Assembly: GCA_024763055.1 (NCBI GenBank)
Contig: JANTGH010000016.1
Location: forward strand, 1 to 40,049
Origin: Desulfobulbaceae bacterium
GTDB taxonomy: Bacteria > Desulfobacterota > Desulfobulbia > Desulfobulbales > Desulfobulbaceae
Reading direction: 5' to 3'
Length of the DNA: 40,049 nt
Shown: positions 5,276 through 23,094 of the stretch, one piece after another
Layout of the letters: each line of letters begins with the position of its first letter
How positions within the stretch are numbered: the stretch's first letter is position 1
Program-made: the position numbers and the translations under genes
The notes under the pieces: model-generated
Seen by the model: only the letters and a program-made list of their open reading frames with translations
What the model was told of the DNA's origin: nothing
The model's database searches: none

Positions 5276-5366
5276 ATAAACCAGAATGGCCGAACCGAAT
5301 CATGGACACAGCCACAAATAAACGATGAAAATCAATCCCGAAGCCCTGTGCTTCGAGCCGATTTTC
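5276..5366 (-). repeat. structured element family 2, copy 1 (fhs 5' leader)
   Basis: Read on the minus strand this has two hairpins. Hairpin 1 pairs GAAAATC (5366-5360) with GATTTTC (5333-5327). Inside is a small internal loop, then CGAAGC/GCTTCG (5355-5350 with 5344-5339) closing a 5-nt loop. Hairpin 2 pairs GGCTG with CGGCC downstream, and the element ends in CTGGTTTATT. A second copy lies at 21450-21543: the 3' halves share ATCGTTT, GTGGCTGTG, CC, TCGGT and CTGGTTTATT in order, while hairpin 1 differs in sequence but stays paired. The element lies between the predicted fhs promoter and the fhs ribosome-binding site, so it should be in the mRNA. A cis-regulatory RNA or a dispersed repeat are both possible. 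Confidence 0.6.
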
Positions 5367-5434
5367 GAAAAACGGAATGAACAAAACAAGAATGCCCAGG
5401 AAGACTCCTGTGCTAAATCTACGATAATTACGAC

Positions 5435-5463
5435 AAATTAGCAGATTCCGGCAAAGATGTCAA
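5435..5463 (-). promoter_or_regulatory. sigma-70-like promoter of fhs
   Basis: On the minus strand, a perfect -35 TTGACA (5463-5458) is followed after 17 nt by TAATTT (5440-5435), a weak -10. It lies just downstream of the thyX stop codon. Transcription would start near 5428, giving a 5' UTR of about 175 nt that contains the two-hairpin element. Confidence 0.5.
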
Positions 5464-13837: not shown

Positions 13838-13878
13838 GCGTTGTCTCCTGTTATCGATGGTGGTGAATTAGGATCGCG

Positions 13879-14023
13879 GGAAAAAATAATTATTCCATTC
13901 TGCTTGTCTTTTGTCCCAGTTTCTACGTTATGAAAAGGGTTACATATTCCCAATATGCGCTCCTTTTCACGCCTTGAATCTGGAACAAAATTCGGCGCAT
14001 TATTGGATAATTATTATTTTTCC
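13879..14023. repeat. structured element family 1, copy A
   Basis: A 145-nt near-palindrome with four nested stems. The outer AT-rich stem (13879-13897 with 14004-14023) encloses TTTTGTCCCAGTTTC (13909-13923) paired with GAATCTGGAACAAAA (13976-13990). Inside are GAAAAGG/CCTTTTC (13932-13938 with 13962-13968), a 4x4 internal loop (GTTA/CGCT), and CATAT/ATATG closing TCCCA. Copy B at 30770-30892 keeps TGCTTGTCTTTT, GTTACATA, TATGC, CGCCTTGA and ACAAAA in order, while the 7-bp stem has a different but still paired sequence. It lies between divergent genes and 70 bp upstream of a strong plus-strand promoter, so it is outside that mRNA. Confidence 0.65.
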
Positions 14024-14058
14024 GTGACCCTAACGTGATTGCATTATCGATTCTGTTT

Positions 14059-14092: not shown

Positions 14093-14121
14093 TTGACGAT
14101 GACAGCGAAAGATCGTATAAC
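14093..14121 (+). promoter_or_regulatory. sigma-70-like promoter of the molybdopterin-binding protein gene
   Basis: TTGACG (14093-14098), exactly 17 nt, then TATAAC (14116-14121), both five of six matches to consensus. Transcription would begin near 14128, about 60 nt before the chosen start codon. Confidence 0.6.
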
Positions 14122-14188
14122 TTCTTTCTGCCAACCATCATGCATAATTTTTACATTATTTTCAATAGAACTTGGAGCAGTCAGGCAA

Positions 14189-15214
14189 ATGAAAAAAAGT
14201 ATTCCAGTGGATCAGGCCGTGGGTATGGTCCTGCCGCATGATATTACGGAAATCGTCAAGGATGAATTTAAGGGTTGTGCTTTCAAGAAGGGCCATATTA
14301 TCCGTATGAAAGATGTTGAACATCTCAGGCGTCTTGGCAAAGAGCATATCTATGTTCTGGAGTTGTCCGAAAATGAAATTCATGAAAATGAAGCTGCCCG
14401 GCTTATGGCTGCAGTTCTCTCCGGTGACGGAACCGAGTACGGTGATAAGGTCGTGGAAGGCAAAGTATCCATCAGAGCATCCTGTGACGGCCTGCTCAAA
14501 ATTAATAAGGAGGCCTTGCTGAAGTTTAACTTGCTCGGTGAGGTGATGTGCTCAACCCTGCAGACAAATACTCCGGTGAAGAAGGGTGAGCAGGTGGCTG
14601 CCAGTCGGTTGATTCCGCTGGTCGGCAGCCGGGCGTTGGTGGAGAAAGCTGTTGCCGTTGCTGGTGAAGGGGCGGCGATTGCCCGTGTTCTACCGCTTAA
14701 AAAAGCACGGGCCGGGTTGGTTATCACCGGTTCTGAGGTGTTCTATGGCCGTATTGAGGACAGGTTTGAACAGGTGCTGCGCGAAAAGTTGGCCGAGTTA
14801 GGTTCCGAGGTGGCCATGGTAGGTTTTGCCCCGGACGATCCCCAAAAGATTGCCGCGGAAATTCACAAGTGCCTTGATGCCGGAGCCGACCTGATTGTCA
14901 CATCCGGCGGTATGTCTGTTGATCCCGACGATGTCACCCGCAAAGGTATTAAAGCGGCCGGTGCCGAAGATACGGTCTATGGAACACCTGTCCTGCCCGG
15001 GGCCATGTTTCTTGTCGGGCGGATCGGCGCGGTACCGGTTATGGGCCTGCCTGCCTGCGGAATGTTTTACAAAATTACGGTTTTTGATCTGATTTTGTCA
15101 AGGATTCTGACCGGAGAGAGCATCGGGCGGAGGGAACTGGCGGATATGGGACACGGGGGCCTGTGTAGAAATTGCAAACAGTGCCGATATCCGGTCTGTA
15201 ATTTCGGTAAATAG
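14189..15214 (+). CDS. MoeA/MogA-like molybdopterin-binding protein with Cys-rich tail
   Basis: Start chosen at ATG 14189 (MKKSIPVDQAVGMVLPHDIT). The longer frame from 14093 begins inside the predicted promoter. The 341 residues start with a MoeA-like segment (GMVLPHDITEIV, FKKGHIIR) and end with a MoCF/MogA-type molybdopterin-binding domain: LVITGSEVFYGRIED, then DLIVTSGGMSVDPDDVTRKG, GTPVLPGAMFLVG and GLPACGMFYK. The last 20 residues hold C-x2-C-x2-C-x3-C (CRNCKQCRYPVC), absent from ordinary MoeA, and could bind iron or zinc. The protein is shorter than true MoeA (about 400). A role in molybdenum or tungsten cofactor handling is likely; the exact step is unknown. Confidence 0.82.
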   Translation: MKKSIPVDQAVGMVLPHDITEIVKDEFKGCAFKKGHIIRMKDVEHLRRLGKEHIYVLELSENEIHENEAARLMAAVLSGDGTEYGDKVVEGKVSIRASCDGLLKINKEALLKFNLLGEVMCSTLQTNTPVKKGEQVAASRLIPLVGSRALVEKAVAVAGEGAAIARVLPLKKARAGLVITGSEVFYGRIEDRFEQVLREKLAELGSEVAMVGFAPDDPQKIAAEIHKCLDAGADLIVTSGGMSVDPDDVTRKGIKAAGAEDTVYGTPVLPGAMFLVGRIGAVPVMGLPACGMFYKITVFDLILSRILTGESIGRRELADMGHGGLCRNCKQCRYPVCNFGK

Positions 15215-20341: not shown

Positions 20342-21442
20342 ATGATGAGGCTGTCAGGAAAAAATATCAGCTGTCGGTGCAGGCAAATAAAAACAAAGCT
20401 CGGTGATGCGTCGGGGATGGCATTACTGATGACCCTGGCCGCCATCAGCTTCCTGGCTGCCATTACCGTCGGACTGGCGACCAGCGTCAACTGGCAGATA
20501 CAGGCATCAACCGGCCAGAAAGAAACAGTTAGGTTGCATGCGGCCGTATTGTCCGGGCTCAGCCTCGTTCGTGCCTCACTGTATGGGGATCAGCAAAAAC
20601 AAAAGTTTGATACCCTGCTTGATGGCTGGAATACCTTGGATATGAAAATAGTTAACAAACTCTTTGCAGGTGATAAGGTATCCATTACCGTGCGAGACAT
20701 GTCCGGCAGAATTCAGGTCAACAGGCTGGTGCTGAGTGATGAGGAAAAAAAGAAACTGCAAAAAGATCGCTTGAGAGGCCGGAGGGAAGGCGGGAAAAAA
20801 CAGGGCGATCCGGAAAAGCAGCAACGGGAACTCTGGAAACGTTTTCTTCTTTCCGGCAAATTTGCCGTTGAAGGAGAAGACGAGGCGATCGCCTTGATTG
20901 ATGCCTTGAGCGACTGGTTGGACAACGATGATCTGGCGCGGGATCACGGGGCGGAAACCGGATATTATCAATCGTTGAAAAATCCATATATTTGCCGAAA
21001 TGGTCCATTGCGCTATCCGGAGGAGCTATTGCTTGTCAAGGGCTTTAGCCGGAAGATCGTGTATGGTGACAAAGAACATGAGGGAATTATTGACTATTTG
21101 ACAATTTATGGTCAAGATGGCAAGATAAATATAAATACTGCACTTCCCCTTATTCTGCAGGCACTGGCACCAGGAATGAACGATGAGATGGCCGGACAGC
21201 TGGTTGAATTCAGAGAGGAGAAGGACAATCTGAATGCACTTGAAAATCCACAATGGTATCGGCAGGCCGGCGATTTCCCCGGTGATCTCGTCTTTGACAA
21301 AGAAATGATAACTACGGTAAGTTCTTATTTTTTCTTAAAAATAACAATAGAGAACAATGGATTTCAGCAAACGGGTGAAGGTTTCCTCTACCGGGATCCG
21401 AAGACCCGAGAGCAGGATTTGCTGAGTTGGAAAGAAAAATGA
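20342..21442 (+). CDS. gspK: type II secretion minor pseudopilin GspK
   Basis: 366 residues. The prepilin-like segment is ASG-MALLMTLAAISFLAAITVGL; a residue other than Glu at position 5 is typical of GspK, which caps the pseudopilus. Long alpha-helical insertions follow (charged EEKKKLQKDRLRGRREGGKK region), then the family landmarks SDWLDNDDLARDHGAE, YPEELLLVKG and INTALPLILQAL. Start at ATG 20342 or the next codon; no strong ribosome-binding site is visible. A 71-nt gap separates it from gspJ, and a 134-nt gap with a structured element follows before gspL. Confidence 0.93.
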   Translation: MMRLSGKNISCRCRQIKTKLGDASGMALLMTLAAISFLAAITVGLATSVNWQIQASTGQKETVRLHAAVLSGLSLVRASLYGDQQKQKFDTLLDGWNTLDMKIVNKLFAGDKVSITVRDMSGRIQVNRLVLSDEEKKKLQKDRLRGRREGGKKQGDPEKQQRELWKRFLLSGKFAVEGEDEAIALIDALSDWLDNDDLARDHGAETGYYQSLKNPYICRNGPLRYPEELLLVKGFSRKIVYGDKEHEGIIDYLTIYGQDGKININTALPLILQALAPGMNDEMAGQLVEFREEKDNLNALENPQWYRQAGDFPGDLVFDKEMITTVSSYFFLKITIENNGFQQTGEGFLYRDPKTREQDLLSWKEK

Positions 21443-21449
21443 TTTATCT

Positions 21450-21543
21450 GAAAATAACCCCGGAAGTGATGCCGTTTCGTGTTATTTTCATCGTTTGTTG
21501 TGGCTGTGACCTGAAAAATCGGTCCAGCCTGCTGGTTTATTCG
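21450..21543 (+). repeat. structured element family 2, copy 2 (gspK-gspL gap)
   Basis: Hairpin 1: GAAAATAA (21450-21457) pairs with TTATTTTC (21482-21489); inside, CGGAA/TTTCG can pair with one G-U. Hairpin 2: GGCTG-T-GACC pairs with GGTC-CAGCC nearly perfectly. The 3' half matches the fhs-leader copy (5366-5276 minus) in order: TTTTCATCGTTT, GTGGCTGTG, CC, ATCGGT, GCC and CTGGTTTATT. In both copies hairpin 1 begins with GAAAAT and ends with ATTTTC, but the inner sequences differ while pairing is retained. It begins 8 nt after the gspK stop and ends 33 nt before the gspL ATG. Confidence 0.6.
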
Positions 21544-21576
21544 AAGACCCTCTCTATTCCCACTGGTTAATTAACT

Positions 21577-23094
21577 ATGGCGACCCGTATGCTCGGCATT
21601 GACCTCCAGGAAGATTTGCTTTGTGCCGTTGTTGTGGAACAACTCGGCCCGGAACGAATTGTTCATTCCTGTGCCTCTCTCAAGGTCGATGGCATTGAAC
21701 AGCTTGCCGTTGCCGTGCCCGAACTGCTTGGCGCGATTGACTCTCCCTCAGATGGATGTATCCTGGGACTGCCGCTGTCTATTTTAAGTGTCCGCAATCT
21801 GACCCTGCCCTTCAGTGATCAAAAAAAAATGAGACAGGTACTGCCGCTGGAGCTTGAGGAGCAACTCCCTGTACCTGTGGATCGACAGGTTATCGATTTT
21901 ACGGTCACCGGGAGTCAGGATGGAGGCAGTCGTGTTCTCATCGCAGCGGTGGATAAGATTGTTCTCCGTGACCTGATTTCCGCCCTTGATGAGGGAGGCT
22001 CTCCTGTCCGGGCTGTTACCCTTTCGCTTGATGCCCTTGTTCGTGGTTATATGCGGGAAAATGAAGAAAAACAGCCGACCTTGTTTCTACATGCCGATCC
22101 TCACGGAATGTGTATGGCCTTATGGGCTGATGGCCGAATTGTTTTTATGCGCTGGATAACCTATCAGCAGCAGGTATTCACTCAGCCCCTTGCAGATCAA
22201 AAAGAGATTCTGCTTGCGGTTGATCGGAAAATAGCGAAAAAATGCATGGATGACGCCTGTGTGCTTATACGGAACAGTCTGTATTATTTTCTGCAGGAGG
22301 GCGGCGAATCCATGCAGCCAAGACAGGTCGTTTTATCTGGCTGTATTAACGGCAGGGGATTATGGGAATCATTGATTGCTCATGAACTTGATCTGCCGGT
22401 GAAGATGGCCGGGACACAGCCTAATATTTCCGGGCTCCGGCTTTCGGAATCGGTACAAAAACAATGGAATTTTTGTCTGTATGCTGCCGCTCTCGCTCTT
22501 GCCGAAAGTGGTTTACGGAAAAAGAAAAAATCCGTCGGCCTGAATTTTCTTAAGGGAGAGTTCGCGCCTAATCCGATTCGTTTTTTTTCCAGACGATCCT
22601 TACTCACTGCCGCCGCAGTTTTTGGTCTGATTGTTGTCATCGGTTTCGGGTTGTTATGGAACAGTTACCGCAACCTTGATGCCCGTGCCCTTAGTCTGCA
22701 TGGGAAAATGACAGCCATCTACAAACAGACATTTCCCGGAGTGAACAGGGTTGACCGTCCCTATCTGCAGATGCAGTCAAAGCTCAGGGAAGTGCAGGGC
22801 TCAGAAGTTTCTTTGCCCTTATTTTCTGGTGAAAAGCGGGTGCTTAAAATTCTTGCTGATATTTCCGAGCGTATCCCAAAAGACCTTTCTCTTCATGTTT
22901 CCCGTCTGGTTATTGATAAGGAGTCCGTGCAAATGAAGGGAACAACGGATGCGTTTAATAATGTGGATGTTATAAAAAATAAACTTGCCGCCTCGTCTCG
23001 TTATGTGGAGGTCAAAATTGTTTCGGCGGCAGCGGACAAGAAAAAAGGTGCCATTCGTTTTGAAATTCGTCTTCAGCTTGGTGAGACATCCTGA
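21577..23094 (+). CDS. gspL: type II secretion assembly-platform protein GspL
   Basis: 505 residues. The cytoplasmic half is an actin-like/PilM-type domain (MLGIDLQEDLLCAVVV at the start, GLPLSILSVRNLTLPF, LPLELEEQLPV) that docks the GspE ATPase. One transmembrane helix lies near 345-365 (LLTAAAVFGLIVVIGFGLLW), then a periplasmic ferredoxin-like domain that pairs with GspM. Longer than E. coli-type GspL (about 400). Ends in TGATG shared with gspM. No clear ribosome-binding site precedes the ATG, so the upstream structured element may matter for its translation. Confidence 0.92.
   Translation: MATRMLGIDLQEDLLCAVVVEQLGPERIVHSCASLKVDGIEQLAVAVPELLGAIDSPSDGCILGLPLSILSVRNLTLPFSDQKKMRQVLPLELEEQLPVPVDRQVIDFTVTGSQDGGSRVLIAAVDKIVLRDLISALDEGGSPVRAVTLSLDALVRGYMRENEEKQPTLFLHADPHGMCMALWADGRIVFMRWITYQQQVFTQPLADQKEILLAVDRKIAKKCMDDACVLIRNSLYYFLQEGGESMQPRQVVLSGCINGRGLWESLIAHELDLPVKMAGTQPNISGLRLSESVQKQWNFCLYAAALALAESGLRKKKKSVGLNFLKGEFAPNPIRFFSRRSLLTAAAVFGLIVVIGFGLLWNSYRNLDARALSLHGKMTAIYKQTFPGVNRVDRPYLQMQSKLREVQGSEVSLPLFSGEKRVLKILADISERIPKDLSLHVSRLVIDKESVQMKGTTDAFNNVDVIKNKLAASSRYVEVKIVSAAADKKKGAIRFEIRLQLGETS

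Follow-up and report, generated by a model that had tools for sequence, protein, structure and literature searches.

The window analysed here, a 40,049-nt stretch of the genome of a Desulfobulbaceae bacterium, contains two copies of one 90-nt, two-hairpin element, each extending from GAAA to GGTTTA. Copy A (5277..5366, minus strand) lies in the 5' leader of fhs, which was identified by the Pfam family FTHFS, and copy B (21450..21539, plus strand) lies between gspK and gspL and starts 7 nt past the gspK stop codon. The gene downstream of copy B is GspL-like (T2SSL and GspL_C matched below their cut-offs, PilN just above), and its neighbours matched T2SSK and T2SSM. Both copies match the covariance model R1 (copy A 73.9 bits, E 4.8e-12; copy B 91.5 bits, E 6.9e-16), which was built from nine copies; as both belong to these seeds, the scores are in part due to construction. 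The preliminary description had placed the element between a TTGACA promoter and the ribosome-binding site of fhs and had reported a homologous copy in the same orientation before gspL, and both statements were confirmed. A 24-nt core (TTTTCATCGTTTNTTGTGGCTGTG, up to 3 mismatches) was matched only at the second copy, with 0.00 matches expected in shuffled sequences; the fhs copy possesses one extra T.

Folding of copy A yielded hairpin 1 at 5327..5366 (-) (GAAAATC...GATTTTC), the helix of which covaries across the copies, and hairpin 2 at 5286..5315 (-) (GTGGCTG...CGGCCAT). The counterparts in copy B were found at 21450..21489 (+) (GAAAATAAC...GTTATTTTC) and at 21500..21532 (+) (GTGGCTG...CAGCC). 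It had been claimed that the paired bases of both hairpins change together. This applies to hairpin 1, both arms of which differ between the copies (GAAAATC/GATTTTC versus GAAAATAAC/GTTATTTTC) while pairing is kept, but not to hairpin 2, in which the 5' arm GTGGCTGTG is identical and only the 3' arm differs (CAGCC versus CGGCC, replacing a U-A by a U-G pair). A first MAFFT-based structure, in which the arm of hairpin 1 was misplaced, contained only an alternative 3' hairpin (CCAGC-CAT-GCTGG) competing with hairpin 2. In comparison to dinucleotide shuffles, the RNA folding z-scores were -3.56 for the fhs copy and -3.48 for the gspL copy. Since the opposite strands also fold (-1.62 and -3.24, respectively; the gspL copy thus nearly as well), folding alone cannot assign the strand.

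The fhs promoter was predicted at 5435..5463 (-) as TTGACA-17-TAATTT by a pattern of our own that allowed one substitution. This pattern was found in six of seven congeners and is absent in L133; a consensus scanner did not list the site, nor did it list any promoter-like site at the gspL copy (21380-21640). Another feature of the fhs leader is conserved independently of the repeat, namely the palindrome CAGGAGTCTTCCTG (5397..5410, -), which is part of a conserved leader block with the sequence AGCACAGGAGTCTTCCTGGGC (5394-5414, -). The own genome and six of seven congeners share exactly this palindrome; G002 deviates by a single change. Minimum-energy folding predicts that AGTCTTCCT of the palindrome is paired to the ribosome-binding site (at AGGAGGAC) in the own leader and in four of the six congener leaders examined; the leaders L130 and L132 instead show the palindrome folded back on itself. 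Judging from these predicted folds, the palindrome of the AGCACAGGAGTCTTCCTGGGC block might serve in translational control independently of the repeat, and it would be a better candidate than the repeat for regulation in the fhs leader.

The two copies belong to an extensive family of repeats that Desulfobulbaceae-like genomes carry at gene ends and in leaders. When the fhs copy served as BLAST query against the own genome, ten other places emerged at E<0.005, one of them the gspL copy. Scoring of the best 150 of 797 candidates with R1 gave at least 110 matches at E<=1 and at least 88 at E<=0.01 in the 4.17-Mb genome. If up to 2 mismatches were allowed, an 18-nt core was hit 79 times in the own genome (37 forward, 42 reverse) and 50 times in G012 (19 and 31), and the reversed-pattern control for this core gave 0 hits. 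The covariance-model search of related genomes that had been proposed for the element was also performed: among 57 genomes, including the own one, 27 contained an R1 match at E<=0.1 and 30 did not. Six of the seven congeners showed at least 66 to at least 76 matches each, the best 76 candidates per genome being scored, and BLAST with the gspL copy matched many copies of G002 at 83-87%. The seventh congener, G006 (89% complete), showed one weak match; compared with at least 66 in the other congeners, it offers a useful contrast for the search for a mobiliser. Elsewhere, matches were counted in G011 (58), G012 (37), G019 (63), G022 (22), G030 (15), G038 (75) and G050 (17), and the distribution across the relatives is patchy. 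In a phylum-wide draw, 2 of 297 genomes, the own included, contained matches; as 14 candidates per genome were scored, this is an underestimate.

Viral contigs gave no match to one exact pattern, and plasmids and phages gave none to the gspL copy (blastn, E<=1e-5). The preliminary statement that no named riboswitch fits agrees with the Rfam searches, in which the window gave 0 matches, with far sub-threshold ones only at copies A and B, and 14 loci from 14 other genomes gave 0 matches at E<=0.1. In the literature searched, which covered few subscription papers and no preprints, no description of the repeat was encountered. The window also contains another dispersed repeat, about 165 nt long, at 13868-14034, upstream of the ORF 14093-15214; among the matches listed, it had at least nine in the own genome at 79-88% and many in G001.

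The notion that the element belongs to fhs and gspL could not be upheld, as it is a dispersed repeat with about a hundred copies and most congeners have no copy at either gene. In the fhs leader, the copy was not found in five of seven congeners, and the leaders of G002 and G003 contain a different copy, located upstream of the conserved AGCACAGGAGTCTTCCTGGGC block, whereas the own copy lies downstream of it. At the gspL site, no model match was present in the six congeners inspected (G006 was outside this comparison). By eye, a weakly similar stretch was seen there in G001 and G007; it may be an old relic, so that the site is perhaps not cleanly empty in these two genomes. Another insertion is common to G001 and G007 and absent from the own genome and G005. 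A further site is the stop codon of a gene which, from its C-terminus, we take to be ubiE. In the own genome the unit follows the TAA of this gene directly; orthologues with the stop at the same position were found in five of the seven congeners searched, and no unit was visible in the next ~110 nt. As regards a target-site duplication, many copies are flanked by TTTAT on both sides, but the TTAC-type copies lack it; the empty sites compared are diverged. No excision or recent jump of a unit was seen, which counts against a mobile repeat.

Placement relative to genes was analysed with a set of 85 own-genome copies, which resulted from 90 model matches after merging of overlapping loci and in which C12:42480 and C12:42511 are the two strands of one place. 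Of the 110 R1 matches, 29 (all with E 7e-4 or weaker) are absent from this set, which conversely includes 4 copies outside those 110. Genes were called with a codon-score ORF caller written for the analysis. Only 9 of the 85 copies shared more than 30 nt with a called gene, versus 73050 of 90024 random windows (81%). The copies are distributed over both contig strands (41 plus, 44 minus). For the 66 copies with both neighbours called and no overlap, the orientation of the neighbours relative to the unit was (-,-) in 32, (+,+) in 17, (-,+) in 13 and (+,-) in 4 cases; copies A and B both belong to the (+,+) class. Among neighbours no more than 200 nt away, genes following the unit were sense in 22 and antisense in 36 cases; for genes preceding it, the figures were 17 and 32. 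The downstream genes, the comparison of which had likewise been suggested, are varied, and with 54 gene starts (22 sense, 32 antisense) versus 53 gene ends (17 sense, 36 antisense) at this distance, neither a sense bias nor a general preference for gene ends is apparent. A particular junction recurs nevertheless: in 13 of the 85 copies the end of the unit coincides exactly with the stop codon of an antisense neighbour (11 TAA, 2 TGA), whereas 81 of 1927 non-coding TAA (4.2%) serve as stops at the same loci. All ten close, non-overlapping pairs (up to 200 nt) are arranged head to tail at distances of 3 to 163 nt, and in seven of them exactly 3 nt separate the model ends.

The units have recurring ends, TTTATNNGAAA on the left and CTGG, followed mostly by TTTA or TTAC, on the right. 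In between, a variable hairpin 1 is followed by a more conserved 3' module, TTTCAT.GTT.GTTGTGGCTG...GGTCCAGCCATGCTGG. Flank tables and BLAST define the termini of copy B as TTTATCT on the left (21443..21449, +; most BLAST alignments with G002 copies begin at 21440 or 21443) and TTTAT after CTGG on the right (21536..21540, +; these alignments end at 21537-21545). The left terminal TTTAT is present in 40 of the 85 own copies. At the right end, scored in 75 copies, 38 read TTAN and 26 TTTA; the corresponding antisense tags, scored at this end only (10 of the 85 copies unscored), were GTAA in 27, TAAA in 26, ATAA in 7 and others in 15 copies, and neither GTAG nor CGTC was among these 75. Inspection by eye of the ends TTTATNNGAAA and CTGGTTTA/TTAC revealed no terminal inverted repeats. 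An integron attC site was considered and rejected, as the ends are not complementary when judged against the attC consensus.

Longer repeats were also found around copies. They start with TTTATCCGAAAATGGCGCAGAGCGCC or a similar sequence, contain several further hairpins and end with a similar 3' module. A pattern for them gave twelve hits, one of which is a short unit and six of which are complete, with 187-269 nt including a flank of ~18 nt. At L041, L054, L093, L100, L108 and L125, such multi-hairpin repeats were noticed; their left end is the same and their right end is related, and loops such as CGCTCTGCG and CGCAGAGCG recur among their hairpins. Deletions in these longer repeats may have given rise to the short units. 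Several copies contain nested inserts of 16 to 27 nt. Small inserts (AGTCTACGCTTATCTG, AGTCTTCACTACGTTCCGCTTACCTGG) were noticed within the copies at L087, L105, L110, L116, L117, L122 and L125, where they sit between the hairpins or in the loop of hairpin 2. No longer version carrying a gene was recognised by eye in a non-exhaustive inspection of the core hits of both halves in G012 and G000.

The preliminary description had concluded from the compensatory change that an RNA or cruciform structure is under selection. A maintained, covarying hairpin was indeed found. Covariation was determined in alignments fitted to the covariance model, with 85 distinct rows for the own genome and 40 distinct rows from 27 other genomes. 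The covariation score was 0.271 (0.152 shuffled) in the own set and 0.224 (0.097 shuffled) in the other set, and 0 of 500 shuffles reached it in either. With APC-corrected G statistics, for which 2 fragments of the 85 own rows were left out, the best four of 3871 column pairs all belonged to hairpin 1, and hairpin 2 did not stand out in this set. In the other set, the best three of 2232 column pairs were helix pairs (two of hairpin 1, one of hairpin 2).

As fitted alignments lean to the model, the pairing test was repeated without alignment, with the arms anchored only at GAAA and TTTC (63 of 85 own and 32 of 40 other copies could be anchored). Watson-Crick pairs exceeded those obtained with shuffled partners in both sets (own 516 versus 410, sd 10; others 271 versus 227, sd 6). 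Neither G-U pairs (own 71 versus 84; others 23 versus 36) nor A-C pairs (own 47 versus 63; others 25 versus 30) showed a rise. In structured RNA, G-U pairs are usually tolerated; their missing rise therefore favours a DNA hairpin or a replication process that restores the palindrome, and the compensatory change by itself does not point to RNA. Two observations count against a DNA repeat. In the fitted alignments, the hairpin 1 cells contained 70 G-U versus 30 A-C pairs in the own set (16 versus 16 in the other set), and this excess would favour RNA. In addition, hairpin 2 possesses one nearly invariant G-U pair (73 of the 83 copies with letters there); without this first pair, the ratio of G-U to A-C was 48/54 in the own and 12/16 in the other set. 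The earlier view that genome-wide copies lacking both orientation bias and covariation would favour a simple repeat applies only in part: genome-wide copies exist and no sense bias was found, but the covariation is significant.

Copy number, intergenic placement, orthologous sites without a copy, the junction at stop codons, the direct arrays and the covariation of hairpin 1 were all observed. The family probably consists of miniature mobile DNA repeats and not of a riboswitch, and the copies at fhs and gspL are most likely incidental insertions. The units would be mobile but non-autonomous DNA, moving by way of a single strand or hairpin and copied by an enzyme acting in trans. In this process the CTGG end would join at TTA, which reads TAA on the opposite strand and in some cases is precisely a stop codon, and the units would stack head to tail. 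Pairing might be kept by a requirement of the mobiliser or by template switching during replication rather than by an RNA function. No mobilising enzyme was found, and the Y1 transposases do not track the repeat, which counts against this reading. There is a small chance that the family represents a cassette-like system, in which recurring ends and the conserved 3' module carry an exchangeable insert of ~20 to 200 nt that comprises one to several hairpins with preserved pairing, and units are integrated head to tail next to TAA by an unrecognised enzyme, which would be neither Y1 nor a known repeat mobiliser.

Beside miniature mobile repeats of this kind, a REPIN- or REP-type repeat mobilised by a RAYT or an IS200/IS605 Y1 transposase was considered. 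High copy number, extragenic or intergenic placement and hairpins agree with it, and seven matches to Y1 genes were found in the own genome. Compensatory hairpin changes are reported as common in REPINs (PMC3116915), so that mobile DNA hairpins can covary too, and REP termini are stated to provide stop codons often (PMC3733652). This origin is nevertheless rather unlikely: none of the 75 scored antisense tags is GTAG, and close units are direct, not inverted (10 of 10). Furthermore, G011, G022 and G030, which belong to one genus and of which G030 is 79% complete, contain 58, 22 and 15 copies and no PF01797 match, G014 contains 11 such Y1 matches and no copy, and only 1 of 27 Y1 loci examined had copies in its flanks, beside a fragment. 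Y1_Tnp was rejected as the mobiliser, since copies and PF01797 matches are uncorrelated; a lost or unrecognised relative may have this role.

A mobile terminator or stabiliser of mRNA ends, kept for its function at the 3' ends of genes, is quite improbable. The 13 copies exactly at stop codons, the stems flanked by A and T runs and one terminator-like site in copy A would fit, but gene ends (53) and gene starts (54) balance each other within 200 nt, the T tract comprises only 4 residues, and the terminator scan was not above shuffles (1 versus 0.5 for the fhs copy, 0 versus 0.4 for the gspL copy). Moreover, one window copy occupies a 5' leader and the other lies within an operon, and no listed promoter-like site adjoins the gspL copy.

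It is very unlikely that the element is a cis-regulatory RNA, riboswitch or leader, controlling fhs and gspL. In its favour, copies A and B have the orientation of the gene that follows, the fhs copy is preceded by a conserved promoter-like site and followed by the ribosome-binding site, and covariation was observed; however, the position at either gene is not conserved in most congeners, about 100 copies have varied neighbours, those near gene starts are sense in 22 and antisense in 32 cases, and the alignment-free test gave no G-U preference. Equally remote are many paralogous, independently transcribed small RNA genes, which the conserved 3' module and the covariation would suit, but not the arrangement of units in tandem, head to tail, at distances of 3 to 163 nt, or the missing G-U preference in the alignment-free test.

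Under the preferred reading, the family is a clear example of strong compensatory change between two copies, often read as a mark of functional RNA, in a dispersed, apparently mobile DNA repeat. In motif searches, dispersal and G-U preference are worth testing. As repeat abundance does not track Y1 transposases, the nature of the mobiliser becomes a testable question.

MITEs, ERIC, Correia/NEMIS and BOX elements are small, non-coding, dispersed miniature repeats in intergenic regions, and the repeat described here resembles them in all these properties. MITEs possess terminal inverted repeats, whereas the ends of the present repeat are not inverted repeats of each other. REPs carry a tetranucleotide in front, most often GTAG, and are inversely oriented in BIMEs (PMC8266576). 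Because neither GTAG nor inverse pairing was found, the repeat is classed as a miniature dispersed palindromic repeat, a variant of that known kind, and not as a REP or REPIN. REPINs and REP doublets are likewise extragenic, hairpin-forming and of high copy number, with common compensatory changes and tandem clusters (PMC3116915). They differ in consisting of two inverted REPs together with a RAYT, whereas here two unlike hairpins occur in fixed order, in direct arrays, with no GTAG and no correlation with Y1. The termini of GTAG/CGTC-tagged REPs often give stop codons to flanking ORFs (PMC3733652), a feature shared by the present repeat, but these REPs are short single palindromes (20-40 bp) with a GTAG or CGTC end, in contrast to the 90-nt unit with two hairpins and a TAA-type junction. 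Finally, template switching is reported to produce compensatory change by a mutational process (PMC8794818); hairpins maintained in this way reflect a process and not an element, and the same process could act on hairpin 1 of the repeat.
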